Part shown: positions 6,894-63,980 of the stretch, piece after piece
Numbering within the stretch: position 1 is the stretch's first letter
Layout of the letters: every line of letters begins with the position of its first letter
Assembly (NCBI RefSeq): GCF_040054535.1
Contig: NC_090783.1
Location: 2,085,001-2,149,000 of the forward strand
Direction: 5' to 3'
Length of the DNA: 64,000 bases
From: Antennarius striatus
Taxonomy: Eukaryota; Chordata; Actinopteri; Lophiiformes; Antennariidae
Position numbers and translations under genes: made by a program
Notes under the pieces: generated by a model
Database searches by the model: none
The model's input: the letters and a program-made list of their open reading frames with translations, nothing else
Told to the model about the DNA's origin: nothing

Positions 6894-6894
<1 letters not shown>

Positions 6895-6983
<89 letters not shown>
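6895..6983. repeat. (CA)n microsatellite, long
   Basis: Uninterrupted CA tract of about 88 bases, the longest pure microsatellite in the window. Confidence 0.95.
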
Positions 6984-6984
<1 letters not shown>

Positions 6985-7418
6985 TGTTAGACATTTTTCT
7001 ACAAGAATTAAAAAAAAAACCCACCTACGCAGAATGAAGTAGACAATAAAGCTGCTGTTTGCACATTTGTAATGCCTTCCAGGACCCTCATTGGGGGAAT
7101 CTGTGTGTGAAAAGAAGGTTATGGAGCTTCTGGTGTTAAATAAGATGAATAAATACGACTACATTTAAACGAAAACATTGTTTTTTCCTCAAAAACATCC
7201 GAACCCTGACAAAGGCTCTATTTTTTTGCTTTGATATACGTTTCATTCCAACAAAAATTCACTTTTCAACCCCCCCCACCCCACCCCCCAGAAAGACTTC
7301 TGTCCCTGTCCCTCCACCACCGTGTATAAATACTTAATCCTCCCAAATCCAGACAGGAAATGCCCTCGTCAGCTTTTTACTGAATGCTTTTCAGAGACCA
7401 CCCCCCCCCCCCACGCAT

Positions 7419-7419
<1 letters not shown>

Positions 7420-7467
<48 letters not shown>
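7420..7467. repeat. (CA)n microsatellite
   Basis: CA tract of about 46 bases preceded by a poly-C run at about 7387-7402. Confidence 0.92.
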
Positions 7468-7468
<1 letters not shown>

Positions 7469-9351: not shown

Positions 9352-14799
<5,448 letters not shown>

Positions 14800-30300: not shown

Positions 30301-30781
30301 AAATCCACAATAGCCTGTTTTCCTTAAAAGAAAAAAAGACTAAACTTCTTTTGCTAAACTAGCTGCAATTTCCTGACATCAAGCCCTGATTGTCCGAAAT
30401 GAATTACTGACACCCCATGAAAGAGACCCAAGTATCACCAGACCGGAAACAACCATCTAACTGAACAACTACATAAATAAATGCATCACTAGTTCAACAA
30501 CAAAACGTCATAAGCTAACAAACTAGCCCTCAAGCTATTCTGATTATATTACTAATAAATGTTAAACGTTTAAGCAAAAGGGCGTTAATATTCAGACAAA
30601 TATCCGTCGTTTCGACCCACATCTTTTTTATTTTCCTGCTTACCAGGTTAGCAGGAATGAAGTCCAAATGTTAGCCTGTTCACTACAGCAGTTTAGCTAG
30701 AGCCAAAATCACAGCAAATGACAGCGAGGTGGACGATATGAGCGCAAACAGCAGCTAAACTGTCTACATTACCTCAAACAT
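24307..30781 (-). CDS. C2H2 zinc-finger protein B, 9 fingers, multi-exon
   Basis: Probable nuclear DNA-binding regulator; no named orthologue recognised. Twelve exons join to 2,421 nt (806 residues): 30773-30781 (M-F-E only), 28929-29103, 28366-28838, 27532-27718, 27228-27280, 26638-26803, 26467-26556, 26227-26301, 26044-26130, 25763-25840, 25160-25402, 24307-25091. All phases agree. Residues 1-300 are acidic, Ser-rich and low in structure, with [11 protein letters not shown] and the [19 protein letters not shown] module shared with gene A. Exons 7-11 each open with a basic patch ([37 protein letters not shown]) followed by acidic or Ser-rich sequence, and all are in phase 1-1. Fingers 1-2 lie in exon 11 ([19 protein letters not shown] onward) and fingers 3-9 in exon 12 (about residues 568-790). 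Fingers 3 and 4 are spaced by a long linker and have a longer HX4H or atypical form. The start is predicted only from a nine-base coding exon and is the least certain part. Confidence 0.85.
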
Positions 30782-32040
30782 AGTGCTCCGGGTTGGGAGG
30801 ATGTCATATGAAAAGCAGACTGATGATAAATGAGGTTAACGCAGCGTTATTATGGACGGCGGCAGCTGTCAGGAACAGTCTGCTAGCTTATTGCGCCACC
30901 ACTTCTTCCTCTTTCATTCTTTTTTTCTCCAAGTAGCGGAGCGCCTTACAGTCAGACATAGCGGGAGCTGTGGGCGCCTACCGCCACCTGCTGGACAATA
31001 TAAGACACTGCACGTAGATAAATCCAAACATTCAAGCCACGTTTCATTCATTTCATGCAAGTGTTTTCATCTTTCCTTTTTTTCCAGTTCACTTAGAGAA
31101 TATCAAACTTTAAAAATTACTTAAATTTACCGCCATTTGAGTCTGACACCTACACCAGAAAAAAAATCTAGTTAGAAGCACAGTAATCTCATTTCATTTC
31201 ATCTTTGATTCATAAAAGAGGTGTATTTTCCATCTAAATGTGTTACAACTCTTCAGGTTTGTTAGATTCTATTCCTCAAAATTTAAAATATGCTGATTTT
31301 TCACAATTTTCCACTGGGAGAATCAAGCACAGATCTCACAGAGTATTGGATTCAAGACCCCTGTGGACCAAATTATTTGAATTGTGAACTGGCAGTGGGA
31401 GTGTTAGTTCACCTCCTGAGCACTGCCGACGTGCCCTTCAGCAAGGCACCATCCCCTTGCAAGTTTCTCATGATGTGCCCCATGTGAGAGCTGCCCGGGG
31501 ATTATTTATTTATTCATTTATTCATTTATTTACAATATTCATCTCATGAATATTTCACAGGAATATTACCTTTACAACATGGGTACAATGATTTCTGATC
31601 TGTTTGATAGAACACCTTGGCCACCTTGTGTAACATCACCGCTTATTATTTACAAATAAAATCTTTTCCAGTTTATTATGGACGAAAGTGTTGGAATAGG
31701 AAATACGTTGTTTGTGAATATTTAAATTATTCTGGCTTCTTTTGATTATTCTTAAATAGTACATGTATAAACCAACAAGCATATTCTCTGTTTTTATTCT
31801 CCCCTAGTGGGTTGGGATGTTTCATTAGCTCTAACGTCAGTGAGTTAATGTGTCACCGCTTTATTAGCAGTGCGGCCGGGAATACCTCCACAATCTGGGT
31901 CACAACCGAACTTTGACCTCGAGCAGCTTCCTCCAGCTGCACCACTTCAGACAGCTGAGCTGGCGACCAATGACAACACCCGCGTGACACTTTGACGCGC
32001 GCGTGCGAGTAGGCGTGGAGCTGGAGCTGTCCCCTCTCCC
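30782..32040. other. Intergenic between zinc-finger gene B and bfar
   Basis: Divergent gene starts about 1.3 kb apart. The first 100 bases probably hold the zinc-finger gene promoter. A degraded SINE relative lies at 31310-31510 and the remainder is AT-rich. No coding sequence is supported. Confidence 0.5.
31310..31510 (+). mobile_element. Degraded SINE copy
   Basis: Shares with the SINE at 21268 the motifs GTGAACTG(A)CAGTGGGAG, TTCACCTCC, GAGCACTGCCGA.GTGCCCTTCAGCAAGGCACC and a terminal CCCCA. The tRNA-like head is largely eroded. Confidence 0.55.
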
Positions 32041-32220
32041 TTCCGCGCAGCAGCAGCAGCAGCAGCAGCAGCCATGGCGACAATTACTCCAGCAGAAATA
32101 TGTATCCGCTCCGTTAGCTGACTGAGTGTTGGTTTTGGACGTAACTTCTCGAACCGGTTCGTTATGTCATCCTCCGGCTTTTCGCCCGTCAGAAGCCGAA
32201 CCTGAGGCGCGTTAGCAGCG
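32041..32220 (+). promoter_or_regulatory. Predicted bfar 5' UTR exon with CAG repeat and short uORF
   Basis: GC-rich stretch with about eight CAG units (32048-32071), then an ATG in good context (GCCATGG, 32074) opening a 15-codon frame that stops at 32119-32121. A donor-like GTGAGTCC follows at about 32221, and the acceptor of the exon with the bfar start is at 33481-33482. Transcription start not determined. Confidence 0.5.
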
Positions 32221-33109
32221 AGTGAGTCCCTCCAATGACGCCGTCTACCTGCAGCTGTGTGACTAATTTAGCTTAAGGTAACGTTACTTCAGTATGTTAG
32301 CTAGCTAGCTAGCTTGCTAACTAGCATAACAATCCTGTAGCTAACGATATTACCTCATTGCAGTTGGAACGTTAAAGTGTTGTTTTTGCCTTTTAGCGGA
32401 GTCGTAAGTGAAGTAGCTGTCCTAGCTAACCGGTTATTGGTGAGTTGGTTAAAATAGCTAAAACAGTCACGTCATAAGTTATTATTTACCTGGCTAAAAT
32501 ATCATCGCGTATTTCTTTCCGTTTCACTTTCATTGTGTTTAGCTGGAAAGCTCATGTGAATTTAATAGCTGTAGTTACTCGACTTAGTTGTTTCTCACTC
32601 CAGTTGTTTGAATGTACGGTACTCGGTGCAAATTTTAAGATTATCAAGTGTTAATTCAACAGTTTAATGTGTTCCATACAAAAGAAAAACTGTAATCCCC
32701 ACTGGGAATTTCCGTTTTACAGAAAATTAGTTTTCACATCATCAACTCAAGAGATTAATGTGGATGTTTTGGTTATTGGTTATGTCAGGATCCCTGATCA
32801 TAACCGCTTGGAATTTCCCAACTTTTTAATTTGTCTTGAGCACCACATCAGTTAGCCCTTGGAATTTCCATGTGTTCACGAAAGTGAGTCATTGACACAC
32901 CGTCACTAGCATTGAAAAGCAAAACCCAACTGAGGATTGATTATAACAAAGCGAAGTGGTCAAACGTGAATAGCAAACAATGGACTAACTGTGCGACTCA
33001 ACTTCCAGTTGAGTCTTTTTACAGGTATGTGACCAAGGTTAGGGGTGCAAAGATAGCAGTTGCACAATACAGAACACATACATTATCTGTGGAATGAATT
33101 ATTTTAAGA

Positions 33110-33156
33110 CAAAACTATGTTATTTAACAAATAAAGATTGGATTGGATTGGATTTA
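33110..33156 (+). repeat. RTE-like LINE 3' end (ATTGG tail)
   Basis: AACAAATAAAG followed by three ATTGG units, the end signature of fish non-LTR elements, in the 5' UTR intron of bfar. Confidence 0.45.
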
Positions 33157-33507
33157 ACACTGATTTCTATTTATAAATGCATTTATTTCTATATCTTTGA
33201 TGCTCCACACGTCAGTTTGAGACTTTTCCAAGCATTTAAATCTTTAAACAAGCAGAGCATGGTGTGATTTTGAGTATTTTAATATTCTATCCTTACAGAA
33301 TTTAGTCCCAAGTTTTGAAATAAATCACTGCATTAATTCTTTTGAAGCATGTAGAGGAGATCTGCACTGGATTGGATTGATTCAACAAATCTTTGTTTGG
33401 ATAAGCAGATATTTGTGATTACCTGTCATCAGTCCAAATGGTAAATACTTTGGCCATTAACCTTGATCTTCCTCTTTTTCAGACTTATATACAGTAGGTT
33501 GCACCAG

Positions 33508-36500
33508 ATGGAGAGGGAATCATCAGAGGATGCTCTGGGAGCATCAGCGGACAACCCTACCCACATAGAAGCCCTTGAGTTGAAGCCGTCCACCACCAAC
33601 ATCTCAGAACATGAATTCTCCTGTCACTGTTGCTATGATATCCTGGTGAACCCCACCACTCTCACCTGTGGCCACAACTTTTGCCGCCATTGTCTGGCCC
33701 TGTGGTGGGAATCCTCTCACAAGAATGAGTGTCCAGAGTGCCGGGAAAAATGGGAAGGGTTTCCCAAAATCAACATACTTCTGAGGTAGGATTTTTATTG
33801 CCAGACCATAGTAAAAAATGAATGTTTTTTTCACCCCAGTATTTATATTTCACATTCCCTGTGAGGTCAGGTGTGCCCATTTCGAAGACACATTATTTGT
33901 ATCAGCCACATAGACGACATTAAAAACCATCAGGCAGCCCTGTTTTATGACAAACCATCTTTCCATTGGTGAAATACTTTTTTAAAGACTATTGTGCCAT
34001 AAAATTTGGACCTAAGAGGTGAATTCTTTGGAACCATGGTCAGAATTTCCAGACTCAGTGGCTGTGGAGGAACTTAATTCATTCCATGTGCAAACTAATC
34101 AGTTAATTCAAATCATGTTGAGTCCTGTTAGATGATGCTTTAGGAAACTCAAATATAACCAGCGTATCTTCACTGCTTTTGTTCCTTCTGTTGTTGTGCT
34201 TGTTGCTTTCCGTCACTGATTGGATTTATTAACACAAAGCTCTTGCATTTAGGGATGCAATGGACAAACTGTTCAGTGACGTCATTCAGCGGAGGCTCAC
34301 AGAGATCCAAGCTAACCCCAAAATTTCTCGGAGCTTGCTAGCCTTCCAGAGGTAATGCAGTACAAGTGGATTTAGCGTGCATCTTTTGTCACAGCATCAT
34401 CTCAGCTGTTGTGCATTCACTTGTATTTGAAATCCTTTGTGATATTAAAAAAGAGGCATCTATCAAATGTCTTCCATTTTTTAGATATGGTGATAACTTG
34501 GGTAGATCCAGAACAACCCAGAATAAAGGAACAGGCTTCTTCTTTTCTGGAGTCCTAACTGCACTCACGTTTGTGACTGTAAGTATTTAACAGCAGGGGG
34601 AAAAAAACACCCAACATGGCACTAAATGAAGAGGTCAGTTGTTCTTGTCATGTCAAAAGACCATGTTTATTTTGTCCATGTGGCATCTGGGACAAACGTC
34701 TGTGTGTTTTTACACGTGGCAGTGAATGTTGGCATGTTTGTAGGAATCGATTATGACTGCTTTTGACCAGAGTTCAGCAAATTGCATCACTAATGTGGGT
34801 TTCACAAGGCTATCATCGTTTTCTGTGGTTCACACGAATCATACAAGAAAACATTCCCTGCAAATGTGAATGTTTTTGGAACTGAGTGAGTAAAGAAGGA
34901 TGTTTCAGAACTGATCAAGTCCAGGATGAAATACATTTAATATTTAATGAGTTCAAATTTAATACTTAAATTCCCTTGCTAGTAAAATCTTCTAAACCTT
35001 TTTCTTCCGACTTCAGTTAAGTATTTGTCACCTTTTGACTTCCAAAACTAAAAATATATGTTTCTCCTCTACAGACTTGTAGAGTTTGCTTTAAAATCAA
35101 ACCATAAGGAATTTAGCACAAGTATATTTCGTGTGAGGAGAAAATATTATTTTTTTCCTAAAATGGAGCAACTGTGAAGGGAAACCTGTCAACCCACACG
35201 TGGGGTCGCACAACAGCCGCTTGGACGTCTGTCATCACGCTGGCTCTGTACCTGATAAAATATGAATACCCCTAAATGTATGAGAGTGAATAACTTATTA
35301 ACTGTTTCTATAAATGTGCAAAAAAAATTTCTTTACATCAGTCGTAGTTTTATGCAATTAGACAAATATAAGGCAGGATTTATTTTATTCAGACTCTGAT
35401 GTGTCCAGGTTTAAGACATAGTGACCTCTACTGTTAATGATTGATTAATGCAGCCAGCAATATCCTTTTTAAACTAAATATTCATTTACCTCCTCATAGA
35501 TAAAGTTCCCCAGTGTGCCATCGCCAGTGTGAGCTCAAAAGAGTTCTGCTTGCCCTTTTCCAGGTGGTGGTGCTGGTGTATCACTGGAGCAGTGGTGCGG
35601 CTGACCATCGTGACCCGCTGATCAGTAAACCTGTGGCTCGCTGGACGCCGGAGGAAGTCGTGTCTTGGCTGGATCAGCTGGGCGCGTGGGCTCAGCTTTA
35701 CAGAGTGCCCTTCCAGCAGGAGAACGTCAATGGAAGGTAGATGGATCACATTGATTATGTCAATGAAATCCAGGCACGTTATTGTTTTAATTCTTTAATT
35801 GAAACTGATTTGAGTAATATATTTGAACTGTGAAGCTTTCCTCGTTGCATAAATCATCAAAGTGTGTTAAAGCTCACACACATGCCACGTGGTTGTGTCT
35901 TTGCTTCAGGCTGCTGCTTATGCTGGGGGACGAGGAGTTATCGAATCCTCCTTACAGCATCAAAAATCAGGCTCACCGCCGGGCCGTCCTGGCTGAACTG
36001 GATAGACTAAAAACTCTGGGGGTCAAACCTCCACAGAACCTCTGGGAATACAAGGTAAAGAGCCCGCTCTGCCCCAGACATCAGATTATACCATCAACAC
36101 ACTGATAATCAGCTGACTGTATGTCTGAGTCATCGTTCTAAATACTCTAAGGATATGACATGTTCTTTCTGGGTTGCATTTAATCCACCATGATTGAGAT
36201 TTTATGAACTGAGTGTCCTGTTTGTTTTTTCTTTCATGTATAATAACCCAACGGCTCCACTCACTCTGGATACTTATTTCTATCACTTTCTGCCAGGATG
36301 CTAATGCAGGGAAGTCTCTGTTCTTGCTGTATGCACTGAAGCGCTCCCCTCGTCTCACACTCTTCTATTTGTATTTATTTGACTACTCGGAAACCTTCCT
36401 GCCCTTCCTGCACACTTGCTGCCCGTCTGTCGCACACATCGACCCCTCAGTTGAGAACAGCTTTTTCAACACACAGGTGACCCTCCCATCCAATGCAATG

Positions 36501-37522
36501 TCACTAAATCTGTATCAAGATGTCCGATTGAGTCGTCGTCATCGTGTGAATGTGTGGATCGTATTTTTAGGATGACTTCTGATCATCCGCCTCATTTTAA
36601 TCGTTTGCCTCAAACTTTTCATTATATTTTTTGGTGACGTTGTTTGTTCAGTTGGAGCCCAGTTGGGGACAGTGGGCTGAGTTTCTGGTCAAGTACCTCC
36701 TGCTGCCGTACCAGCTGATAGCAGAGTTTGCTTGGGACTGGCTGTCCGTCCACTACTGGACGTCTCGCTTCATTATCGTTAACACCATGCTGCTGTCGGT
36801 GCTGGAAGGCTGCACCCTCTGGAGACTCTGGACAAGAGCCACAATCAGGTAAGACACACACATTCACACAAAGCTCTGGCAGCTGAAAGGAAAGACGGAT
36901 TGCAGCTGTCTAGTTCCAAGACGATTGATGCGTTGCAGCTTTTATACATCCTGTTCAAAGTTCAACTGTTGCACCTTTTATTGCACCTTGCTGTTCCGTT
37001 CTGATAGATGTCTTCAGCAGCAGAGAACAGACAGATCAATGAAAAGACAAAGTATGTCTGCATCTCCTGCTTGTGGGTCCCATTATCCAGTCTGGGACAG
37101 CAAACGATGGTGATGCTGCTCAGCAGAACCAGTCAGATTTACAAATAGAAGTTTAAAATGAAACACAACCATCCTCTCACCGAGGATGCAGAGCAGTGCT
37201 TTCCTTTTTCTAGCTTTTTTTGTAATATATGTATTTGAAAATACCCACACTCCCTGGTTGTTGCAGTTGTGTGATTGTTAATCTGTGATTTGACTGCTCA
37301 CACTAACCTTGATCCTCTTCTTACGTTAGGTCTCTGCCAAACAAGATGTGGAGCCATTTGTGGAAGATGTTATCTCAGGGGTTTGTCTTCGCCCTCGTAT
37401 GGCCTTTCATCCCTCAGTTTGTGTGCAACTGCCTGTTCTACTGGGCTCTCTACTTCAGTCCCATCATTAACATCGACATGGTGGTACAGCAGCTGATGCA
37501 CCCAGAAACTCAGGCACCGTAA
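33508..37522 (+). CDS. bfar: Bifunctional apoptosis regulator (RING-SAM-TM)
   Basis: ER-membrane E3 ubiquitin ligase that restrains apoptosis and is involved in ER stress (family knowledge). Eight coding exons join to 1,359 nt (452 residues; human 450): 33508-33785, 34253-34351, 34485-34578, 35564-35736, 35910-36054, 36297-36476, 36652-36848, 37330-37522. The order is a C3HC4 RING (about residues 39-79: CHCC, CGHNFCRHC, CPEC), a first membrane segment (GVLTALTFVTVVVLVYHW, split by an intron), a SAM domain (about 182-250: WTPEEVVSWLDQLG), then a hydrophobic C-terminal region with further membrane segments (LPYQLIAEFAWDWL; FIPQFVCNCLFYWALYF). The start is the first in-frame ATG after the 33482 acceptor. 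No domain is missing and phases are consistent throughout. Confidence 0.96.
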
Positions 37523-47699: not shown

Positions 47700-48399
47700 A
47701 TGGCATTTCCACAAGTACAACTTGGTGAGTCTGTATTATTTGTACACATTTAATATAATGCATTTGTATTTCCTATAATGAGAGATATTCACCTTCTCTA
47801 ACCCCCTCCCTGCTCTTCCTTTCAGCGCCCCCCCCGTTGGAAGACAGCCCCGCCCAGATCTTCTGTCCTAAGTGTCGACAGACGGTCCTGTCCGAGGTGG
47901 AGTACTCCTCCGGTTTGCTCACCTTCCTGGTCTGCTCAGGACTCTGCATCTTTGGGTGAGAAGCATCATTTCCTCCATGCAACAGGAATCTGCTGTCATG
48001 CTAATGTGATCATGTGAAACATATGATTAAGATTAAAAGAAACACACATTTGACTGATATTCACTCAGAAACTCTTTGGATGAATCTTTTTCCCAGGTTT
48101 TTAAAAAAAAACAAAACATACACAATCTTTCATTTTTAAAAAAAATAAAAAATTCAGTTCTATTCAGACTAACATGCACCACGTTGTATAAATAATAAAA
48201 ACTCCTGTCTGCTACTTTCCTCTCCAGCTTCGGTTGTGGTTGCTGTCTGATCCCGTTCTGTGTGAACCAACTGAAAGACGTCATTCACACCTGTCCTACC
48301 TGCAAGACTCAACTTGGGTCCCACAATCGTTTATTCAACGGCACCAGACCTTTTCAGTTTGGTTGGATGGCTACAAGACACCTCGCACCCCTTCCATAA
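47700..48399 (+). CDS. LITAF-domain (SIMPLE-like) membrane protein
   Basis: LITAF-family zinc-binding membrane protein of late endosomes/lysosomes (family knowledge). Three exons (47700-47724, 47826-47955, 48228-48399) join to 327 nt (108 residues). The LITAF domain fills it: CPKC at 22-25, a hydrophobic membrane-inserting segment at about 38-63 ([18 protein letters not shown]...IPFC), then HTCPTC at 72-77 and LGSHNRL. The Pro-rich N-terminus of LITAF with PPxY and PTAP-type motifs is absent; only [19 protein letters not shown] precedes the domain. The C-terminus extends about 21 residues beyond the domain. The exon before the ATG is preceded by an acceptor (TTACAG, 47689-47694), so an upstream coding exon could add residues. 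I could not tell whether this is litaf itself or a paralogue. Confidence 0.82.
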
Positions 48400-49139: not shown

Positions 49140-52100
49140 TCAAGTCAGAAAGAGTTGAAACGTGATGAGCAGTGCGAGTATGGTGAAGCCAGGATGGATG
49201 TGGACGCTGTCGCAGCCTGAAACAGACACAAACACTCACGTCAGACGTCGCAAATTGTTCCAGAATTGCGTGTTGAATTATACGATCGATTAAAACCGAT
49301 CTGATTTTGCTGTATTTGCTCCTTACCATAAAGAACTAGCTAGCCGTAAATCCTAATTCTTGCTGCTTGTATTCAAGTTAATTTAAAAAACAAAATCTGT
49401 TTGTGGCACTTTTTTTCTTGTTTTATTGTGTTTTTAATCTTAGTTGGGGGGTTTTTCCTTTAAAAAAAAAATCACCACCCTCCAAATATTTTGCAACTGG
49501 GGGCATTTCTGCTTCTACCACCCTAATGAAAAGCTTTACAATCAGGTGTCCATTGAAATTTGAGTGTTTTACGGTCTTTGTGATTGTGGTTATCTGAATT
49601 TATTTGTGCTGGATTAACAGCACTGGATTAAAAAAAAATGTTGAGCTAACCTGAAAAATCTTCTTTATGCTAAATAAATACTTTTGCATTTCCCGTACTC
49701 ACCACTAGGGGTTGTGCTTCCTGTTGACATTGTTGCCACGGTCGTCCCAGTCGTCACCGGTGGCGTGGCGGTGGTGGGGGCCGTCGTTGGGTCACTCCGG
49801 CCTCCTTGGAGACCGATTCCAAGCGTGTTGAGTTGCGACTGTAACTGCCTCCCGATCCATTCGTTTATCACTGGATGGTTTTGATAAAGGATCAGATCTC
49901 GCACGTTGTCACCAAGAAGAGCTGCGACTTCTCCAACCGACAAGGTCTGGAGACAAACAGGAAGAGGAAACATCAGACATCAGTGTAAAAGATTTGTTCT
50001 TGATGGGTCGTTTTGATGACGCCTTGCATATCCCCAGTATACAGTGGTTCCTCTACTTACAAACGTCTCGTCATATGAAATTTTCAAGTTACGAAATGCC
50101 TCAACAAGAAAATATTGCCTCTAGTTACGAAAGAAATTTTGAGTTACGAAAGGTAAAAATACAGTATGGACTGATACTCGCAGCTGCCAAAGGTTCCTGA
50201 ACACAACATTCTTATAGCTGCTCTGCCATTGGCTCTTACCTAGCCTCCTGGCATCCCATTGGCTCGGAGGGACCCCTGTGTGGAGCTAGATAGGTGTCTA
50301 TACAGCGTCCTCGTCATTCGGCCCTCGACCCGTGAGGTGTTCTGATAGTTTTACATAAATATATTAACTTTTAGAGTATTCACTATGGACCCCAAGAAAG
50401 TGACGGAGAAAAGAGGAAAAGAAAAGACGAAGAAAATAGTTTTTTGTCCGTACAAACAAAGCAAGAGATGATAGAAAAGCGTGAAAAAGGGTTGATCTCA
50501 CCAAAGAATATGGCCATAATGCACCTACAATCACCACATTATTAAAACAAAAGGAAGTTTAAGGAGTTTAAGGCGTCGCGTGGGTTGTTGGAGAAGTTCA
50601 GAAGGAGGACTGGAATTCACTCTGTTGTTCATGGTGGGGCAAGAGGGCATGAACCAAAGAGGGCAAAAAACAATGAGGACAGCAGTTAAAGGGTAAATGA
50701 CCATCATTATTATTCTTTACTCTATTCCTTGTTTTTACGTTATGCACAACTCTCATTTATTGTGTAATAATCTAATCGTAACATGTATTTGTTACATGTT
50801 TTGATGCATTTTTATGCTTTATAAAACATTTATGTCTGAATTTTGGGGGGCTTGGAACGGATTAGGGCATTTGCATGGAAAACGCGTCTCTACTTACGAA
50901 ATTTTCTACTTACATTTCTTCCAGAACCAGTTAATTTCGTAAGTAGAGGTACCACTGTATTTCCTTTCCCACCCAACAGGTCAAGGCGGATGACCGGCCT
51001 CTAGAGTCTGGGTCCTGCCCGGGGGTTTCTTCCTCAATGAGTTTTTCCCCGCCGCTGTCGCTTATCCTCGCTCTGGAGGGTTCTGTTGGGTTTCTCTGTT
51101 AAAGTGCTTCGTAATGTCTGATGATGTGATTAAGCGCTATACAAATAAAGGTTGATTGATTGATGTACACTTTAGAAGGTACAGTCTTGTTCATATTGGA
51201 CTGTTTCTAGTTACGATGCCCTCTTAGCACCAAGAGTTACGTCACATCAAGACTGTTCAAATATAACAAATCCACAATTACACACTACCAAACAGACACA
51301 CAAATACACCACTGACCAGTAAAATGCTGTCGTTCACTCTGGTTAAGGTTTCCCCGTCCATGTTGACGTCAGAAGCAAGCAACTGTCTGACAAAAGCATC
51401 ATCTGCGCCGCCTGCATCGACACAAAAGCAACAGACGTTTGTCTTCAGACAAAGTTTTTCTCAATGCAATACGACTGTAATGTGTGTATTTGTGTACCGA
51501 TGTAAGGTTGGAGCTGCTGGTAGACGGAACTAGAGATCATTTCAGTTCTGGCGTTTGAGGCAAACGCGGTTCTGGCAATGTTGAACAGAACGACGATTTT
51601 TTCGTAAGAGCAGCTGGAGACGTTGAGGACGGCAGCGTCTCTGCAGGACAAACAAGGAAGATCTTTACCACAGAAACGTTCCCTTTAACCGAGCATTGTT
51701 ATGATTTCATTACACACACACACATTCGGGCCTCTTACCTGAGGCTTTGTGGGGAAATTCTCTCCAACACCTCCACGTCCAGAGAGCAGAGGTTGATTCC
51801 TCTGATGGCGGTGAGCTCAGCGCCTCCCAGTTCGTTCCCGTCGTTTCTCAGATACTTTGAGATGATGGCTCGAGCCTGGGCGCAAAGAACACACATATTT
51901 CATGAGAACACACACGTGTAAACAGAAGCTCGATGAACATTTGCTTATTTGTTGTCTGACCAGAGACTGATTCCAAGGCCCGTCCTCTGGTCGGAACAAA
52001 GCGGCGAGCGTGTCGACCCGGGTGATGTTCCACAACTCCACGTCGATTTCAGAGGCTTGACGGGACGTCAAGCTCAAGAGCTGAACCTGATCTTCTGGGA

Positions 52101-53696
52101 TGGAGCCGTTGGGGTAAGCCTGCGTGACAATCAGACAAAACTCACTTTGACTTGAATTCGGTCTGTTTAGTTCCTAGTTACTTTAAAGGTAATCAATTTT
52201 TTTTTTTTTTCTAATAAAACGAGGTTTCCGGCTCCTGTCGCCTACCTCTCTCAGCCTGACGAGGATGACTTCCTGGTATTCTGGCTCGTCCACCTTCTCC
52301 GTCAGGGCAGCCAGGTTGTTTCTGACCGTGGTGGCACTGAGGCAACTCCTGAACTGGTTAATGTTGTAGTCAAATGGGAATGCTTCGTTGCTGATGGTCA
52401 CCGCAGTGATATTCCCCACGGTGCACCCTACCAATCACCAAAACCAGACTTAAAATGATGCGTGAATGAAGAATAAAGGTAGCAGAGTGGCGATCTACTC
52501 ACCTGTAGATCGCTTTGAGATGGTTTGAAGGGACCTTCTTATTTCTTCCTTTACCCTCACCCTCCTTTGTCTGTCTACTCCAATGTTCACAAGATAGTCC
52601 AGGAAGAACATCAGGAAGCTCCGCTTTGTTTCCTTGATTGCATAAATAAAAAAAAATGAAACAAGAAGTTGTGTTTCTTCTGCAAATTTCCTGTTGAAGG
52701 CATTGATGGATGCGATGCTTACCGTGTCAAAGTATCCATAGAAGGTTGAATTCAGATACAGAGGCAGGATCCCCAGGTCCCTCAGCGTCTCTTCAGTCCA
52801 ATTTGATGGATTTCTGACAATCAAAATAAGAATTCAAATCAAAATCGATCCGATTCTGACAAGGAAGGAGGCTTTGCCATTTTAAAAATGACATTTTATC
52901 CATTGCTTCTGCACAAACATACCCGAATTGTGTATTCCCGCTCTGCAGCTGAGCAAAAACTGCAACCACTTGAGCATCGTCGAGTTCCGGGCAGTTTCTG
53001 ACTATTTCCAAAATGATGGGGTCAGAGTTCTGGATGTAGCTGCTGTTTAGCGTGCAGGCCATGTTCCCCAGCACCATTATGTCATCTGCAGTCAAACTGG
53101 TGCTTGTTATGCCCTTAAAAATAAAATGAGTGAGATTTAAATCCACAAATTTGACTTGGGCATGTGGGGAAATGGTCTTGGATGCAAATTTAATCCAAAG
53201 GAATAAATGTTTTAATCTTTTTTAGGTGTTCTTGTTGGTGAAGTTTGGTGTCTTTATTTAAAAATGTTCAGACCTGGAGTAATTTTACCCTTCTGGAAGC
53301 ATGTAGGAAATCTCCACATAGGATGCTTAAAGTTATTCAATAAAGCTTTAATTAAGCTCACCAGGCAGGTCCTGGCATTGCTGAGCAGTTCCGTCCATAT
53401 GAATCTGAGGGTGGGGGAGACGATGAAGAAGTTTGCCGACCCCAGCTCTTGAAAATAGGATCTGCAGCTGCTTGGCGCCACCAAGGAGTACCTGAGTTCA
53501 AAAACACCAACAGAAGGTTAACTAATGTGAGACCTCTCATGAACTAACAGTTAAACACGCCATCAACTCACTCGTAGTACAGCAGCAAATCCGGAGGATA
53601 TGAGGTGAAGCTGGTGGCGTCGGGTTGTCTGATGTGGTTGTACATGCAGGTCAGCTGTTGGAGAAAGCCGCAAAACATTTAGACAGTGTAATATGA

Positions 53697-53770
<74 letters not shown>

Positions 53771-56700
53771 GTGTCTCCACCAGCATGACCTTTCTCTCGC
53801 CTTCCCTCCGGGAGGCTTGCACCAATCCCCTGATCAGCTCCGGGTCGCTGTTCCTCACGCCGGTACAAGTGAACCCTTGCAGCACGAAGGACGACAAACT
53901 ACACACACAAACACACATTGTAAGGACTGGTATGGTTTTACTTTCCTCTTTTATTTTGAAAGTCGATCCGACTTCCTTCCCCTGATTGGTGTCACCTGTG
54001 TCTCATTATCCTGTTAGCTCTGCCTCCATTCATCTAGAGGTGTCCTAGACGTGAATAGGGTTTTGGATAACCGGAATATTGACTATATCAGGACCAGCTG
54101 TAATTCTCCTACAGGTCAGTGAATGGAGTTTTCCACCTCCAGACTAAACCCTTGGTTTATTTGAAATCCTATCAAATGAATCTCTAATAGATACTCAGAT
54201 ATTTTAGATATTTTGTGTGAACTCTTCCTTCTCTAAAACTCACTTGTTCACACCTCCCACCACATTGATTGCGAACGGCGTCACCATCAAGTCAAAGATG
54301 ACCTCTGCCTGTAAAAAAACAGAGGAATTATTGTCCATTCTGTGCGTTCAGAAGAAAGCGATGTGTTTCAGCGTCCGGTCCACAAACCTGCCGTCGGTTC
54401 CACTGCTGTTGGTTGATCTGGATGATGATGTCGCTGTTGTTGGAGAAGGACAGCAGCAGAACTCGAGGGATCTCCGAGGCCACCTCAGCAGGAACGTTCC
54501 CTATAATGTTGTCACTGTTGGCGTTCACTGATATGATCTATGGGAGGCGAGATGGAATTCGATTGTGTTCAATCTTCACTTGGATTAAAAGAATTATCTC
54601 TAAACTATCTTGAACTTTTCAAGTTTTTACCTGTTGGACGAAGAGCCGCCGGGTGATCCGTGGCGATCTCCTCAGGTTCGCCACAAATGAAGGATCTCTG
54701 GATGCAGCAATGACCTGGGAGCCATTTATTCCTCTGATCATTGACGACTGTATCCCCGCGACAAGAGAGCCCAGCCTCACCAGCGACGCTGAGCTATTGG
54801 TCTGGTGGGATGGATGAAGATGGCAGCTTTAACGCGGCTGAGCATCTCAAGGAAAAGAATGATTCTGATAACTCGTGCGGAGAGTACCTGTATCAACCCT
54901 GCAGAGATCAGAACCCGGACGATGGCGTTGACCTGACCTTGGTTCCAGTTGGTCACGTTGCTGAGAACACCAACTGTCCCGGCTAAGTCCTGAGGGTCAA
55001 TGTTCTCCAGTTGCCCGGTGGAGATACCAGAACTTTCTGTGCCGAGGGCCTCGATGGCAGAGGCATCAATGGTCTCAAAGTTACCCGCCAAAGCTGCAGA
55101 AATCTGCAGAGAAGAAAGACTTTTAAATGACATGAAACAAGCAGCGTTTGCAAAAATAATTTACTCTAACTAGAGGAATTTAATCAAAACACAGGATTAA
55201 AGAGGATAAAACTCATTGAAATGACTTCTTCAGGCTAAATCTTCTTCAGAAATACCATTCATAGCTTTATTAAATCATGCATGAGTGTTTCTGTGTAAAC
55301 CACACCTGTGGGTCCAGGTCTGTGCAGACCATCATGAGGTCGCTCAAAACAGTCATAGTTTGACTTGCGGTCAGTTGGGTGAAGGCCGGACCGGGAGCGA
55401 CGCACCGGCATAAGGTTGGAATACTGGAGAGAGCAAGAGAGGAGAGTCACGATGACGTGATTCGTCACATTCTAAGAGATTGTCGAGTTTTAAGCTACAG
55501 TCCCGTCAGAACCACGTTTGGAGGCTTTAAAATCCTTCATTTCTAGACTTCCTGTTCACTTAAAATGTACTTTTTCGTGGGTTTTAGAACTCACTTTAAG
55601 GGATTGAAGTTGCTGTCCTGCCTATAAATTAGCTCCGTGTAGAAGTTGGTGAGGTTGACGGGTAAGACCGAGTGGTTGAGGAGCGCAATGTTCTCACGAT
55701 TCACTGCAAACACCTGGATGACCTGCAGGGGAGGAGGACGAGGGAGCACATGGGAAAATTAGTCCATCTTTATCTTTTACACCAAAAATTGGTGAGTTCA
55801 TTTTGGTGAATTCCTATAGTTAGACTTATTACATCTGTAGATCCAAACATCTGGAGATCCTCCAGGGTGAGGAAGGCCATGAAGGGGCCGATGTACTCCG
55901 CAAACCAGGCTGTGGAATTCAGCTCCGGGTTGTTGGGGTCGTAACACCTGGGCACGCCGTCTGAAAAGACGGACGAGTAACGTTAACGTTAACGTCAACG
56001 GGGAGGATTTTACCGAAGGAGGCTAGGGGGATAGAAAGACGGAACTTGTCTGGAGGTGAAATGTACGATTGTTAGCGTTTGCTACCACTGCACATGCTAA
56101 CAATAGCAAAGGCTGAGGTCTTAGTTGTGATACTAGAAAAGAAACACAAAAAATTTAGTTTTCATAACTAGAAATATTATTGGAGGGTTGTGTGTTTTTT
56201 TTTATCTTAAATTTTTGGTAATATTTTTAGCATGGCGCATTAGCGGTAACTACCATGGCTAACACTTTTTATTTTTTGATAGTTATCATTCACTCTTCAG
56301 TGTGCTATTAAAACACATTATTGTTGAGTTTGGTTGTTGCAGCCCTCTCTTACGGCTAGTAGCATGAATGCTAATGTTAGCAAATTTTAGCAAATTTGCT
56401 GAGAAATTCCTGAGTCAGGGTGGACGATAATGTCCGGTCATCAAATTAAGGGATTCTAGCATTTTAAAAAGTCAATAAGATAATACAGGAGGTGATCCTC
56501 ATTGATGACCATTTGTGGTTTAGTCAAGCTTCTATCTGGTTGCTGATTGGTTCCCTGAAACCAAAGCGACATATTGGTTAAAGAAAAGTTATTGTCCGGT
56601 GAAATTTGTTTGTAAAAGCCTCTTGAAGGCTTACGGATCTCTCCATTAAAACACTGCTACCACCCTCGGTCCATGCGATGTTGAAGACTAACCTGAGGTG

Positions 56701-59700
56701 AGGAATTCCCTGACGGTGTTGAACACATCCCGCCTCATGAAGTCTCCGGCTGTGTAGTTGAATTCACCAAGAGCTGAAACGCTGAAAAACCAAACCAAAA
56801 CAAGCACAAATTACATTTTATGCATAAAAAAAGTCCACATTAGCACAGTGTTAGCATACGTACAAGTCCTGGAAGGCCGGGCAGGTGGGGTTGTACGTGT
56901 TTGTGCGGTCGATTAGACTCCTAGTGAGGAAGGGCAGGTAGTCTCGGAGGCGACGATTAAACCAGGCGTTAGCCTCTGACCTGTTGGGACTTCTGAGAGC
57001 GACCGGCCAAACGCAAGGCAGCGTGGGCCGCCGCACCGCCTCTGGGAGGGACTCCTGTAGAAAATACACACTCGTTAATGTTCATTTATCATCGGTATGT
57101 TTGACTTTTCTGGTGTGGGCGTGCGTGACATACAGTCTCCAGGAATATGGGCGTGTTGTTGTAGTGGTCGTAGATCGTACAGAGCAGTGCATCGTTGTCG
57201 ACGGCACCAGGGAGACTGAGGAACCGCCTGAGATCCGATGGAGGCATGGAGTTCAACACCTGAAGGAGTGTCAGACAAAGTGAGTCCTCTTCCTCCTCCC
57301 TCAAACTCTGATTTTACTCTTGAACACAAACCTCTTGTAATTTGCCGGGGGGTATGACGGACAAGAAGGAGGTCAGGTTGGGGAACTGGAACCCCTGGAA
57401 TCTGTTCCTTAAGAAAACGTAGAAGCTCTGTCTGCCGTCGAAGCAGCGAAGACTCTCTTTGTGATCGACAAAGAATGTAAGCAAGATTGATCAGATCAGA
57501 GTTTCCCTTGGGTTTAGTTTGAATGGGGTAACTCAAATGTTATGCACTTGTAAAATACCTTAAAAAGGGACAATTACTGGACAATTAATGTTTAAAAATG
57601 AATACCCCTCTAGACTTCAGTTTACAATGAAACAAACAATACCACTACAGGTATAACCAAACTGTTCAACGTTGGATACCTCCTTTGGCAAAATCCAGAA
57701 AATTTTTAATTCCTCAGGATGTAAATGGTGAAGTCATTTTGCCGAGAGATTTAAAAACTGACAACCGAAAACACACAGCTATTAAAACACTAGTCTTTGA
57801 TTCTAAATGGCTTTCGTGTCATGCAGTTGAAGACAGAAAATATTTACAGCCATCTTTAGGAGTACAGGTAGTACTCAACATACGAACATTCAACTTACGA
57901 ACATTCGGAGATATGAACGAACACGCTTCACCATATCTGACTATCGTCCTGCAGTTCCACTTTCTGCCACAACCCCTGGTCAGTCTTAGGGAATAGTACT
58001 TTAGTATTTAGAGTAATAATGACATTTTATAGACCTCAAATGGCGATTATAGGTTGAAATTTAATAAATAATGACTTACAAATAATTAAACTTACGAACG
58101 ACCTCTCGGAACCAGTTGTGTTTGTATGTTGAGGACTACCTGTATAACCAAAAAGTAAAATCTGTTTTCTTAAATCGTACCTCTGAGGGACAGAATGACG
58201 TGTCTGTGGATTTCTTGCTGACTGACTTCGCTGAGCGAAGAAATGGTTGAATTCAGGTGGGCGACACTGAAACAATCCCAACAAGGAAATCAATCGTGGT
58301 AGCTCCTCCGATGAGAATGCATTCACTGACATTTGTTCAGATCTCATTCAGGCGTCTTTAGAGCTCCATCTGATGCAGTAAAACGAACTATTTTTTGGTT
58401 AATTTCATCATCTTACCCTTCTTCCTGGATGATGCAGTTCCTTCCCTGCAGGATTCCGAAATACGGTCCCACATGGTCGGCCGACAGGTTGAACAGCAGG
58501 GGGGGCAGTCGTCGATTGATCCACGGCGTCAAAACGGAATCGCTGACAGAGGCGTTGGAGAGGTTTGCACGATCAAACACAACTTGCAGCAGAGCTGATG
58601 TTACTTCAGGGGGGAACATTTGCTGATGTCCCTGTAGAAAAAGATTAGAGGCAATATAAGAAAAAAAGCAACCATAAAGGTTTTAAACACAAACCAACAA
58701 CAACAAAAAAATGATGGCAAGATTCTTAAATTATATGCTTCACATTCTAAAAGTGGATAAATATGTGCAGATTTAAGTATTTTCCTGATACTGAAGACAA
58801 TTACTTACTTAATTTGTGTTCAATGCACACTCACCATGACAGCAGGAGATACGTCATCAAAGAAGGCTGCGAGCTGCTGGTTGGGGATGTGATCCGTCAC
58901 CATGACAACCTGGTCAGCAGAGGTGAGCTGGCCGGGCGTGGCCGTCACCTCTGCCAGCTGTCTGGCCGTCAGCAGCGGTAAGGCCTCCAACTGCACACAC
59001 ACATAAACCATTAAAACGTACAGGAAGTAGAGACAAGAAATATAGACGGACGCGATGCGACGGGTCGTACCGGCATGAACTCGGGATAGACCATCAGCAG
59101 CTCATGGAAAGACGGGAAGATGGAGAAATTTCCCAAGTTCCTCTGCAGCCAATCGTCACTGTTGTTGGTGTTGGAGCTGCAGCTGGGGTCTAAAACACAA
59201 AAACACACGACGAATTCTATATCGATGAATTTAGCGTGCTAGATGGAGTACATTTATAAAGTGAGATAGGGGCTGTATCTCAAGAAAAAGACCCACAACC
59301 CAGCTTGGTTGCTGTGGTCCTCAAGGGAAGGTATCTCAAATAGCATACCTGAGGTGTTGTTGGTGAGGAAGACTCTCATGAAGTTCTTGTAGACGGATAT
59401 CTGCGTGGAGAGTTCCATGCGTGGCTGTAGCTCGTTAAAGAGCCGCACACTGATTTGAGAGATGGCAACTTGCAGTTAAAACAATATCAATAGCAGGTTG
59501 TTCAAAAGGCGACGGTGAATGTTTGAGCTCACAAGCGCTGGTAGACGCTGCAGTTGAAGTCCTTCGTGGCAAGACATGACAGGAAGTCAGCACTAACGGC
59601 AGGCAAGAGTGGACGCAGGCTGGCTTCGAAAGTCAAACTCATGAAAGTTGGAACATTGTAGACGACCGTGCCAAAGACGTCCAGTCGGATTTCTCGGAAA

Positions 59701-62700
59701 ACGTCTAAAATGATTGTCAGTGCTGGATCTCTGGGGTTTGGATTCTTGCTGGCAAAAAAAAACAGACCGTTTTTCAGCGTAATTCCGGCTTTGGAGAGGA
59801 AAAGCTTCCAAACGGGTCTTGTACTGCTGGGGTCAGAGGTGTGATCGCACGCCATAAACTCAGCCAGATCCATAGAACTCAGTTGTGTAATCTGTGTGAT
59901 GAGAGAGTATTCTGATATCACATTACATTGTTTCACAAAACAGTCGAGGACAAGCACCGATTTAAGGTGTTTGGGTGTCTCACATTGGCACAGGCGAATT
60001 CTTTGACAGTAAAGTCACAAAGACTTCCCTTGACCAATTTGTGATGGAGGTAGAGGTCCAACGTTGTGCTGTAGTTTCAAAGTTAATAAGATCAAACATT
60101 AACTGACAAGACATTAAAACACCAAGTTTAAAAAAAAAAAATCATATATCCCACCTGTTTACCCCAGTGCAAATCTCTGTTTCTGTGTAGGAAAAATACA
60201 GTAATAAAAGTTTCCATTATGATAATGAACAGTCAAATAAAAAGTCATTTGAGAAGTGAACTTACCATTTATTATGGTGACATTACACTTAAAGGACAGA
60301 AAGATCAAAATGGTTAGGAGACCTCTTTAATAAACATTAGGGATATATTTAGGAAATCAAAGGTGGAAGTCAGAATTAATTACCTCTCCACTGTTTATGA
60401 TGCATCCTGTAATAAAGGAACAGTAATTTGACAATAAATTTACAGTGTGACTCAGAAATCTCAATCACAATATTCAATCAGATGATAAAGCTGCATAAGC
60501 TGCTCTTAAATGCCCCTTAAATGTAATAATTACCTCTATAAATGACACACAAACATTTTTTAAGTGGTGTATTGCTTGCTTCTCACCTGGTGGGATGGAC
60601 CAAGAGATGGATCTCAGGGCTAAGCCGATATTCAAAGACTGATACGGATTCATGTGTATTCTGTTGAATCTAGAAGAGCAAAGTAGGTTTAACATTACAA
60701 TTTTATGCTTTAAAAATATTCATAAATGAACAATATAGAATTTCTGATAGATAGATATATATCTGAATGAACTTACAAGATTTTGAATGTTGAACAATTA
60801 AATGGGTTCTTTAAATACAAAGGCAAATTATTATTAGTAGATGTTGGAATATTATACAAAAAATAAAGAACAAATTTTCTCTTTTTACCATCACGAGCGC
60901 TTTAGAGAGGTAGGACAAGAAGCGGTCATATTTTATCTCATTAGAAGGTTCGGCCAGGTGGTCAAAAACCGCGTTAATGATGAACTCTCTGGTTGGCAAA
61001 CCAGGAAAATCAAGCACCAGCAGATCAGCAAGCTGTCTCGCCGCCAGCATGACTAGAGCCTCCAGCTAAACGGCAAAGAGGGAACAAAATAAAGGTTGCT
61101 GGAAATGAAAAACACAAAAATGGTGAGCATTTTCTCAAAACGTCTTTTGGTTTTGCAGGAATTAAACCTTACAGGGTTGAAGGTTGGGTTGTAACGAAGA
61201 AGGTCTGACAGGAGCACCATGTCTGAAAATGGTCCCAGAGTCCTCAGGAGCCAATCGACGCTGCCATTGGTGATGACCAAACATTCTGGCCCTGGACCGA
61301 GTCGGGAAGACAAACAAAGACAACAACCTTTTACCTCTGGAGTCCTTACAAGATTAGAAATGCATCCATTCAATCAAAAGATGAAGCCGTACCGAAGTGG
61401 GACAAGTAAGGGTTGATGAAATCTCTGACGACCATATACCGCTGAAAAAACTCTGTAAAATGTGGGGAAAGGACCCGGAGTCTGGTGGACAAAGTGAAAA
61501 GGAAAAAGCACTGTTTTTCTTCACAGTCTCCAACTGCATTATAGAAAATCAAAATATCATAAGAAATAAATCAAGAGATATATTGATACTAAAGCAATGC
61601 CAGTTATATTTACATTTGCTGGTAGGAGGAACAGCTGATGTTCCTCCTGGCAACGCAGCGCAAAAACTTTCCTGACGCCGACGGTAGAAGCCTGCTCAGA
61701 CGGACGGAGAACCATTTTGTGATGACGCTGCTGTTCCTCAGCTCTTCATCAGTCAGAGGAATCACTCTGAGTTTTCCAACCACACTCAAAACCTCCCGCG
61801 CTGATGGAATGACCGTAGTGTTTGGCTGCGGGTGGGAGAAATTAGAGATAAATAAGATAGATTTTTTTTTTTTTTCAAGATTTGTTGAGGTTGTGAATGA
61901 TTATGATTAGCTAACCATGCTAGCCAAGATGTCCAAAGCTGGGTCCAAGACCATGGACAGTTTACTCAGCAGTATATTCCACAGGATGAGGCTGTGGCTA
62001 CTGTTTCCAGTCAGATTACACTTCAGGAGAGACACCAGCTGATTGGCTGTGAAGTTCATGAGCTGGAAGAGAGAGACAGCAATTACACAACACTTTGCCA
62101 AACAGGCAGCTTGGGGCGCGGAGACCAGACACGTTCACTTTAAAGGTGATGTTTACCTTTGCACATGCGTATGTCTCCAAGGTAAAACTACAAGAAACAT
62201 TGCCGTGCATGTTCAAGGAAGATTCCAGGGCAGTGCTGCAAATGCATTTAAAGCATGTTAGCCTGAAGGTTAATGACGTTCAAGCGGCTTTGCGTTTAAA
62301 TCACAACAAATCGGATACCTGTTAACGTGTCTGCAGGTGAGAGTACCTGCCAGAAAGTAGAGAAAGGATTTCAGACCGACTGAAATGAAGGTGATCTTTA
62401 CTAAAATGGTTAAATAAAGACGGACTTACTGTTGAACTGGATTACAGGGCACTGAGAACAATAAGGTTTGTGTGATGTTAGAAGAATGTAAAATATTTTT
62501 AACTTGAAATATGAGGAAGAAAAATGAAAGGAAACTCACCGAGATGTTATCTGACAAACACTCTGTGAAAACACATGGAAACAAATATTCAGTCATCTAC
62601 TCTAGTACGATTGAAGACTCCAAAGCCTTCCATTTACATTAATATGCAAACCTCCCCAGTGAATATTCATTCTTTGGACTCAGGTGTGTATTTTCCTGTG

Positions 62701-63980
62701 TGTGTGTATCTGTATGAGTAAGAGACTGACCCTGTGGCGTGTTGCCAACCAGGTTATCGAGTGCAGACAAGAAGTCAGGTTGAATCCCAAAGGACAGAGA
62801 CGGCGTGGCTTTGTACAATCTGCTAATACTAACACATGAGAGAGGAAAGAAATCTCTTAAAACGTTTATGCATTCGTGTTTTTTCAGACTTCATATCCCA
62901 GCTTCCAGATCTGCATTTAGAATCAATCTTGTTTAGATACAATAATCATCAATAAGTCTCTGTTTCCAGGCAGAATCTTCCATCGACTTTTCGTCTTATC
63001 CCACTTTGGAAGATCAGTTTTGGGTTCTTGTAATATTTTCCTTCTTTAGTAATTGATTTATATAGATAGATAAATCAATAAATAGACAATCTAAACTGAA
63101 GATTAAGATGTTATCAAGTCCTTAATGCATTTGACAAGAGAAAGGTTAATAAGTTAAAAAGCCATGCTTACATTTGCTGGTAGTCACGGCAGGTTAAAGT
63201 GGTCTGTAAATTGGAATATTTTACAATTAATCATCCACAAGCGATAAACATTTTCTTGCCATGTTCAAAGTTACAATCATATATAAACCGTTGTGTGTTG
63301 GGATGTATAAGCCAAAATACGCAGGAAAAACACAAGACGTCTCTCATCAACGGACTCCAAGTAGTAGTCAAGCATGCCGTCAATGAGGACGGCCTTCTCA
63401 GGCGGGGTAAGAAGAGACGTTAGCAGCAACTCTGTCGTCATGTCTATCGTCAAGATGGGAAGTACTTCCAGCTGGACGGGAGACAAAAGAGGACAAAAGG
63501 TGTCAAATAAAATAAAAACTTCAAGTAGAGTAACTACAGAGGAAGTATTTCGGCCTGTTGGGTTTTCCGGACTCACTCCAGAGAAGTTTGGGTTGAGAGA
63601 GTAGAAGTCATTCACTCGAGCAAATCTGGCGAAGTAACCGAAGTTCTTCATCAGCCATTCTGTGCTGTTCCTGGCTGAGGAGACGCACTGTGGGTCTGGA
63701 ACATACATAAAAAGTTAACGCAAAACACAAAGGTTTAAGTTCTGTTCATATATAAGGTACCTGAAATGTAATATTTCACATAAAAACCTGAAATACCACC
63801 CCCAGACATTTTATAAAACAAAAATGGCTTCATGGAATGTGGCTTTGTCTGTTTCCTGTAGTTTACTCACCGCCTGTGTTATGATGCCTCAAGAAGTTAT
63901 AGATGAAGAACTGATAGATGTCTGACCCAGTTCTCCAATTCGAACCCATTGAGGTAAAATGAGAGCTGAGCTCTGCCACA
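49140..63980 (-). CDS. msln: Giant mesothelin-family GPI-anchored protein (partial, 5' end outside window)
   Basis: Fifty exons with matching phases join to 5,995 nt (about 1,997 residues plus stop). Terminal exons are 49140-49216, 49703-49946, 51317-51411, 51498-51640, 51739-51875, 51961-52119, 52246-52427, 52503-52632 and 52723-52813. Above 52813 come 41 more, up to 63871-63980. The C-terminus matches human mesothelin: LSVGEVAALLGDNVRDL...NTLGIGLQGG against LTVAEVQKLLGPHVEGL...DTLGLGLQGG, with INLCSLD equivalent to YLCSLSPEE. It ends in a Thr/Pro stalk, then SGCDSVHIHPGFTILALL and a hydrophobic tail, a GPI-attachment signal. A furin-type RQRR (52561-52572) sits about 370 residues from the end, as in mesothelin precursor. 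The N-terminal two thirds is built of repeated modules, each with NS(T/D)xWL...LGxF and LE.L..L..(Q/R)L. Family assignment is confident; the exact orthologue is not. Confidence 0.85.
50042..50957 (+). mobile_element. Tigger/pogo-type DNA transposon relic
   Basis: Terminal inverted repeats CAGTGGTTCCTCTACTTAC and, at the right end reversed, CAGTGGTACCTCTACTTACG, flanked by TA on both sides (the target duplication of Tc1/mariner elements). Inside, from about 50384, is a decayed frame beginning MDPKKVTEKRGKEKTKK, followed after a stop by MIEKREKG and a LLKQKE segment. That is the pattern of the CENP-B/pogo N-terminal helix-turn-helix. The catalytic part of a transposase is missing. Inserted in the mesothelin-like gene intron 49947-51316. 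Confidence 0.75.
50978..51174 (+). repeat. Dispersed LINE 3'-end repeat
   Basis: GGGTCCTGCCCGGGGGTTTCTTCCT, GAGTTTTTCC..GCC.CTGTCGC, TGTTGGGTTTCTCT and GCGCTATACAAATAAAGG followed by TTGATTGATTG form the well-known 3' end shared by fish non-LTR retroelements. It has no coding content. Confidence 0.65.
53698..53768. repeat. (CA)n microsatellite abutting a splice donor
   Basis: About 70 bases of CA repeat (GT on the gene strand). The donor of mesothelin-like exon 53769-53898 (ACACAG/GTGTGTGT) is the first repeat unit itself. Confidence 0.93.
57865..58142. mobile_element. Miniature inverted-repeat element (Tigger-like ends)
   Basis: Left end CAGGTAGTACTCAACATACG, right end reversed CAGGTAGTCCTCAACATACA; the inverted ends continue with ACGAAC...TTACGAAC words. 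Flanked by TA on each side. At 278 bases and with no frame of its own, it is non-autonomous. It lies in the mesothelin-like gene intron 57457-58180. Confidence 0.7.
60155..60808 (-). other. Micro-exon cassette 1 of the mesothelin-like gene
   Basis: Successive predicted exons of 32 nt (60777-60808), 83 nt (60587-60669), 23 nt (60384-60406), 22 nt (60266-60287) and 22 nt (60155-60176). The four micro-exons each contribute one cysteine (NPFNCSTFKI; GCIINSGE; CNVTIIN; EICTGVNS). All have GT-AG borders and matching phases. Each is very short, so single calls are weaker than the pattern. Confidence 0.65.
62319..63203 (-). other. Micro-exon cassette 2 of the mesothelin-like gene
   Basis: Successive predicted exons of 32 nt (63172-63203), 98 nt (62731-62828), 23 nt (62540-62562), 22 nt (62430-62451) and 28 nt (62319-62346), with peptides TTLTCRDYQQ, ECLSDNIS, CPVIQFN and STLTCRHVNS. 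Sizes, order, phases and the single cysteine per micro-exon copy those of the cassette at 60155-60808. Confidence 0.65.

Follow-up and report, generated by a model that had tools for sequence, protein, structure and literature searches.

The window analysed here is a stretch of 64,000 nucleotides (nt) from Antennarius striatus (RefSeq assembly GCF_040054535.1, contig NC_090783.1, positions 2,085,001 to 2,149,000). Positions 49140..63980 of the window carry, on the minus strand, a long gene of the mesothelin family whose 5′ end lies beyond the window; the features of this gene described below are all on that strand. The exon model was obtained with a home-made splice-aware search, then refined, and each border was then checked. 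The curated model has 50 phase-consistent coding exons (6,037 nt) that encode 2,011 complete residues and are open throughout. An earlier sequence-only reading of this DNA had likewise counted 50 phase-consistent exons running off the window, with about 1,997 residues. All internal borders of the 50 exons are AG/GT, and the five exons to which the earlier reading gave coordinates are present on the minus strand with such borders. The open reading frame is closed by a stop codon at 49140, with an AATAAA just downstream. At 63980 the frame enters exon 1 in phase 2, so the gene extends upstream past the window. Donors scored 2.11 on average and acceptors 2.84; the corresponding values over all GT and all AG sites of the region were -3.01 and -3.21. 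Exons 3 and 47 had the lowest-scoring donors, at the 54th and 65th percentiles of all GT sites. The 49 introns have a median length of 98 nt; 48 of them are at most 732 nt long, and intron 48 measures 1,370 nt. Two exons proposed by a gene finder (51095-50973, or 50978, and 50275-50240) were discarded: they lie inside intron 48 and are unmatched in the human mesothelin alignment. By eye, intron 48 (49947-51316) and intron 26 (57457-58180), the longest and third-longest of the model, resemble dispersed repeats. The donor of exon 38 abuts a long GT repeat (about 53700-53768), and a change in the length of this repeat could affect splicing.

On the evidence of profile and structure-database matches, the 3′ part of the gene is mesothelin. 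Exons 34-50 scored 196.2 bits (E=1e-57) with the Pfam family Mesothelin (PF06060), whose cut-off is 25.8; the match spans profile positions 56-583 of 624 and begins at the end of exon 37. In the PDB, the joined protein matched the solved structure of human mesothelin (7ued) with E=1.9e-27; the aligned residues are 1692-1956, in a numbering that runs one higher than the one used below for the cysteines and the RQRR motif. Both matches bear out the family assignment of the sequence-only reading. Exons 34-37 (54244..55103) encode 200 residues without a cysteine, and lie between the repeated modules described below and the mesothelin match. Exons 38-43 (52503..53898), within the Pfam match, would encode the half of the mesothelin precursor that resembles megakaryocyte potentiating factor (MPF). 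A motif search placed a furin-type RQRR in exon 43, at residues 1644-1647 (52561..52572); it is the sole R-x-[KR]-R motif in the protein, ends 21 positions ahead of the first mesothelin cysteine, and is known here as a motif alone. A good-looking alternative donor, AGG/GTGAGG (52555-52566), is located exactly where the RQRR codons end, and its phase is wrong for exon 44. Exons 44-50 (49140..52427), which contain the region matched by 7ued, would encode mesothelin proper, a Thr/Pro-rich stalk and a tail like that of glycosylphosphatidylinositol (GPI)-anchored proteins: as read from the sequence, the C-terminus consists of a Thr/Pro-rich stretch, small residues and then a hydrophobic tail, and resembles a GPI signal. 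In human mesothelin, disulphides join C302 to C326 and C442 to C468, after the furin site, according to the available text of PMC10035497. The cysteines at 1668/1695 and 1810/1836 of the A. striatus protein fit these pairs, with spacings of 27 and 26 residues versus 24 and 26 in the human protein. The last three of them align with human cysteines, and cysteine 1668 falls outside the human mesothelin alignment.

The front 33 exons are copies of one another; they encode at least 1,214 residues, continue upstream, and matched no Pfam family above its cut-off. The clearest copies are two long units, unit A (exons 1-11, 347 residues, 61614..63980) and unit B (exons 12-21, 339 residues, 59533..61481), which align end to end. 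With the database size set to 1e6, BLASTP aligned their entire length with 26% identity over 352 residues (E=5.8e-33). Their global alignment scored 318.5, whereas none of 200 shuffles scored above -9.0. Both units also matched unit C (exons 22-29) over its initial ~105 residues, with E=3.1e-9 and 3.4e-9. In the global alignment, seven of the ten exon borders of unit A coincide exactly with borders of unit B, in the same phase; of the other three, one lies in a gap, one sits next to a gap and is shifted by a few residues, and one is absent in unit B. In length, exon 21 of unit B (359 nt) equals the sum of exons 10 and 11 of unit A (147+212 nt); one of the two units has lost or gained an intron here. 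Both units share tiny exons, of 32, 23, 22 and 28 nt.

Judged by exon position, phase and sequence, the repeating element is read as a group of four exons with phases 2-1-0-0, in five copies, perhaps seven. Four exon classes were distinguished: class a in phase 2; class b in phase 1, the 119-nt exon; class c in phase 0, of the LE-L type; and class d in phase 0, with a motif of the W-F/I-x-R-R-L type and a closing cysteine. The five groups, each a module of ~140-200 residues, were placed at exons 1-3 plus 11, 12-14 plus 21, 22-25, 26-29 and 30-33. Unit A holds a module (exons 1-4, with exon 11 of the class-d type) and possibly a degenerate second one (exons 5-11). The exon model and the class profiles placed module M3 at exons 22-25 (58417..59449), with phases 2-1-0-0. 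The 119-nt class-b exons 2 (63577..63695), 13 (61173..61291) and 23 (59071..59189), all supported by the border check and the class profile, are 2,404 and 2,102 nt apart, in agreement with the spacing of about 2.1-2.4 kb given in the sequence-only reading.

Two further groups were found with a three-module profile, built from exons 1-4, 12-15 and 22-25. Exons 26-29 (module M4, 56864..58266, phases 2-1-0-0), which were absent from the earlier reading, were recovered with 2/400 shuffles scoring as good; class by class, 4/1000 shuffles were as good for class c and 1/1000 for class d. Exons 30-33 (module M5, 55306..56781), a diverged group with phases 2-1-0-2 that includes a 128-nt exon (55833-55960), were recovered with 0/400. 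The earlier reading had taken this last region for a more diverged fourth unit. Pairwise comparison with the other units was weak (BLASTP E=2.2, phmmer 0.02-1.4), and it is the profile that gives the better support. The same reading had held two 89-nt exons to match each other: their length, phase and position do agree, but their sequences do not recover one another in leave-one-out profiles of class a (98 and 217/1000 shuffles as good). In the same leave-one-out tests, each with 1000 shuffles, class b recovered four of its five exons at 0/1000, and class d all four of its exons at 1/1000 or below.

The phases point in the same direction. The run 2-1-0 was seen eight times in the exon series, a count reached by 0/100,000 permutations; with unit B excluded it was seen six times, and 22/100,000 permutations reached this. 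Since the permutations take exons as independent, these figures gauge the duplication itself and are no separate fact. Phase 2 at both ends of the group would allow tandem copying without a frame shift. The proposal that tandem duplication of exon groups built the front part is well supported at the sequence level, by the A-B alignment, the shared borders and phases, and the profile recovery, and the main modules do align with one another in a profile search.

Exons 5-11 and 16-21, the second halves of units A and B, may be degenerate module copies. With a four-module profile, 1 and 3/400 shuffles were as good as these two halves. A full second module inside each unit is favoured by the repetition of the 2-1-0 phase run there, and disfavoured by the class-c profile, whose top match outside its own members was exon 39 (21/5000 shuffles) and not exon 10, which went unrecognised (190/1000).

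We consider it likely that the locus holds one giant mesothelin-precursor gene, composed of an orthologue-like mesothelin 3′ third and a front part enlarged by exon-group duplication. We take it to be one gene, and regard separate genes, a pseudogene or an assembly duplication as less probable. Several observations weigh against this interpretation or parts of it. The class-a exons failed mutual recovery (0/5 at 10/1000 or below, leave-one-out), class c recovered just three of five (exons 3 and 32 were missed), and class b missed exon 27 of module M4 (93/1000). The second halves of units A and B were missed by the three-module profile (58 and 36/400 as good). The donor of exon 3 is weak and was picked partly for giving the length of its counterparts, so that the 3′ end of this exon is uncertain. 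Seven regions were tested for helical periodicity, and in each the signal was weak (z 0.5 to 2.0). Cleavage by furin, attachment to GPI, the signal peptide and a binding role are all steps that we infer, and the one-gene view is drawn from the genomic sequence. Finally, the first-pass gene finder gave two genes, at 51445-63980 and 49140-51361. This split arose from reading past the exon 47 donor to a stop at 51445. It was set aside: the break falls within the mesothelin portion, and when the region alone was run four more times with other settings, one gene resulted.

A gene of the stereocilin or otoancorin type, instead of mesothelin, is an unlikely alternative. Stereocilin has 1,775 residues, otoancorin 1,153 and the human mesothelin precursor 622, and the available text of PMC2628672 describes stereocilin and otoancorin as long GPI-anchored proteins of the superfamily with predicted helical repeats; stereocilin resembles the A. 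striatus protein in length and in its long N-terminal extension. The core also gave a weak match to Pfam Stereocilin (PF21058, E=4.9e-4). Compared through the Pfam model and published descriptions, however, the likeness to stereocilin amounts to this one match in the core, which at 19.8 bits stays below the cut-off of 26.6, against 196.2 bits for Mesothelin; no Stereocilin match was among those listed for the modules, and the protein has the furin-type site and the cysteines of mesothelin. Zebrafish stereocilin-like genes are named in the available part of PMC10299642.

It is also improbable that the region holds two neighbours, a module gene (exons 1-33) followed by an ordinary mesothelin gene that starts at exon 34 or 38. 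Such an arrangement would fit the start of the Pfam match just at the end of exon 37, the front part without a Pfam family above cut-off, and exons 38-50, which could hold a mesothelin of mammalian size; the two-gene output of the first-pass gene finder also speaks for it, though with a break (51445/51361) inside the mesothelin part. Against it, introns 31 to 37 (110, 171, 202, 86, 93, 79 and 345 nt) are short for a 3′ end, a promoter and a signal-peptide exon, and across the boundary where the modules give way to mesothelin (introns 33 to 37, 79-345 nt) the exon phases are continuous and the reading frame is unbroken. A thresholded scan for first exons (an ATG, a hydrophobic mean of at least 2.2 over 10 residues, a donor score of at least 3, and phase agreement with the next exon) found no signal-peptide-like in-phase first exon at this boundary; it gave one weak candidate in the region, at 62596. 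A decayed gene or an assembly duplication, which the weak exon 3 donor, the tiny exons and the many exons might suggest, is very improbable given 2,011 open codons over 50 exons with mostly good splice sites, and an A-B identity of just 26%, which indicates old copies and not assembly repeats.

For the protein of a single giant gene, the following course may be proposed. A signal peptide encoded upstream of the window would direct the protein into the secretory path, where the precursor would be heavily N-glycosylated. The visible protein contains 48 N-glycosylation sequons, whereas shuffled versions average 21.6 (0/1000 as high); sequons occur in all seven regions counted, and this excess fits a secreted or surface protein. 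Furin would then cut at RQRR. If this occurs as in human mesothelin, just the last ~340-360 residues would be anchored, as a short GPI-anchored mesothelin that stays on the cell, and the giant front part would be released or held non-covalently. The sequence-only reading had proposed a long cell-surface superhelix, which is unproven for the front part; retention of the modular part at the surface is doubtful because RQRR separates the modules from the GPI-like tail. A search of the PDB with a five-module profile gave no convincing match (best E=0.8), and the proposal that the modules form a rod draws on family membership and on the weak helical periodicity. Sathyanarayana and colleagues suggested that the superfamily consists of superhelical lectins that bind extracellular glycoproteins (PMC2628672, available text). 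By analogy with this idea, a role in binding matrix or mucus seems the most likely one, with the modular part acting as an extended binding rod for surface-matrix glycoproteins. In evolution, the front part would have grown via repeated in-frame copying of the four-exon group with phases 2-1-0-0, and the larger block (units A and B) would have been duplicated later.

A further, speculative possibility, which we regard as rather unlikely, is that the modules descend from the gene's own mesothelin exons 47-49, copied forward repeatedly, and that cleavage at RQRR frees a modular protein of more than 1,640 residues, which is then secreted. Exons 47-49 also show the 2-1-0 phase run. The class-d profile ranked exon 49 first among non-member exons of at least 15 residues (0/100 and 1/5000 shuffles as good); the figure of 1/5000 needs discounting because it follows a scan of four classes against the other exons of that size. 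After any one class-d member was dropped, 0 to 10/1000 shuffles were as good as exon 49, and for the class-d profile against the whole mesothelin core 14/2000 were as good. No match of this profile was reported in the human mesothelin chain, and none was found in the reversed core. Comparison of the modules with the core by hhalign was not significant (7 to 43/100 shuffles as good), nor were whole-module profiles against the core (28, 33 and 118/400) or against exons 47-49 (15 and 58/400). From these sequence comparisons, a common origin of modules and mesothelin core is suggestive only. If the proposal were true, the released part would be a giant counterpart of MPF, and it is a shed component of matrix or mucus, not an anchored receptor, that its growth would have served.

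The window contains other genes. A gene at 423-5740 on the minus strand encodes a calponin-homology protein, presumably MICAL-like, and one at 6307-15836, also on the minus strand, has trefoil and glycoside hydrolase 31 domains and is, we assume, acid alpha-glucosidase-like. On the plus strand, 26091-37522 holds the gene of a SAM-domain membrane-type protein that we take to be BFAR-like, and from 38747 onward there is a thioredoxin-domain protein gene, presumably TXNDC11-like. Two open stretches at 47759-47956 and 48199-48396 (plus strand), which point at the 3′ end of the mesothelin gene, are jointly taken by us to be LITAF-domain-like.

The A. striatus protein is like human MSLN in its C-terminal ~600 residues, with both cysteine pairs, a furin-type site and a GPI-like tail; it differs in carrying ~1,400 or more extra N-terminal residues, mostly repeated exon groups, and a Thr/Pro-rich stalk ahead of the tail. 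The claim that it is at least three times the usual length holds against the 622 residues of the human precursor (PMC2628672), and is made less striking by the superfamily itself, whose known members reach 1,775 residues; length alone is unremarkable. Human mesothelin is composed of mixed ARM and HEAT repeats in the account of PMC10035497, as far as its text is available, and the modules of ~140-200 residues exceed a single ARM repeat. Among the titles and abstract openings listed by the literature searches, there was no modular fish mesothelin and no serial exon-group duplication before a complete mesothelin. Fish genome annotations may already contain such long models as 'mesothelin-like'.

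Mesothelin is a tumour antigen and a therapy target, and the available texts of PMC2628672 and PMC10035497 describe its normal function as little known. A protein that gained more than 1,200 extra residues by phase-matched exon copying would offer a natural test of the role of the N-terminal (MPF) side of the precursor, and would be an example of how an exon group of symmetric phase lets a repeat protein grow.

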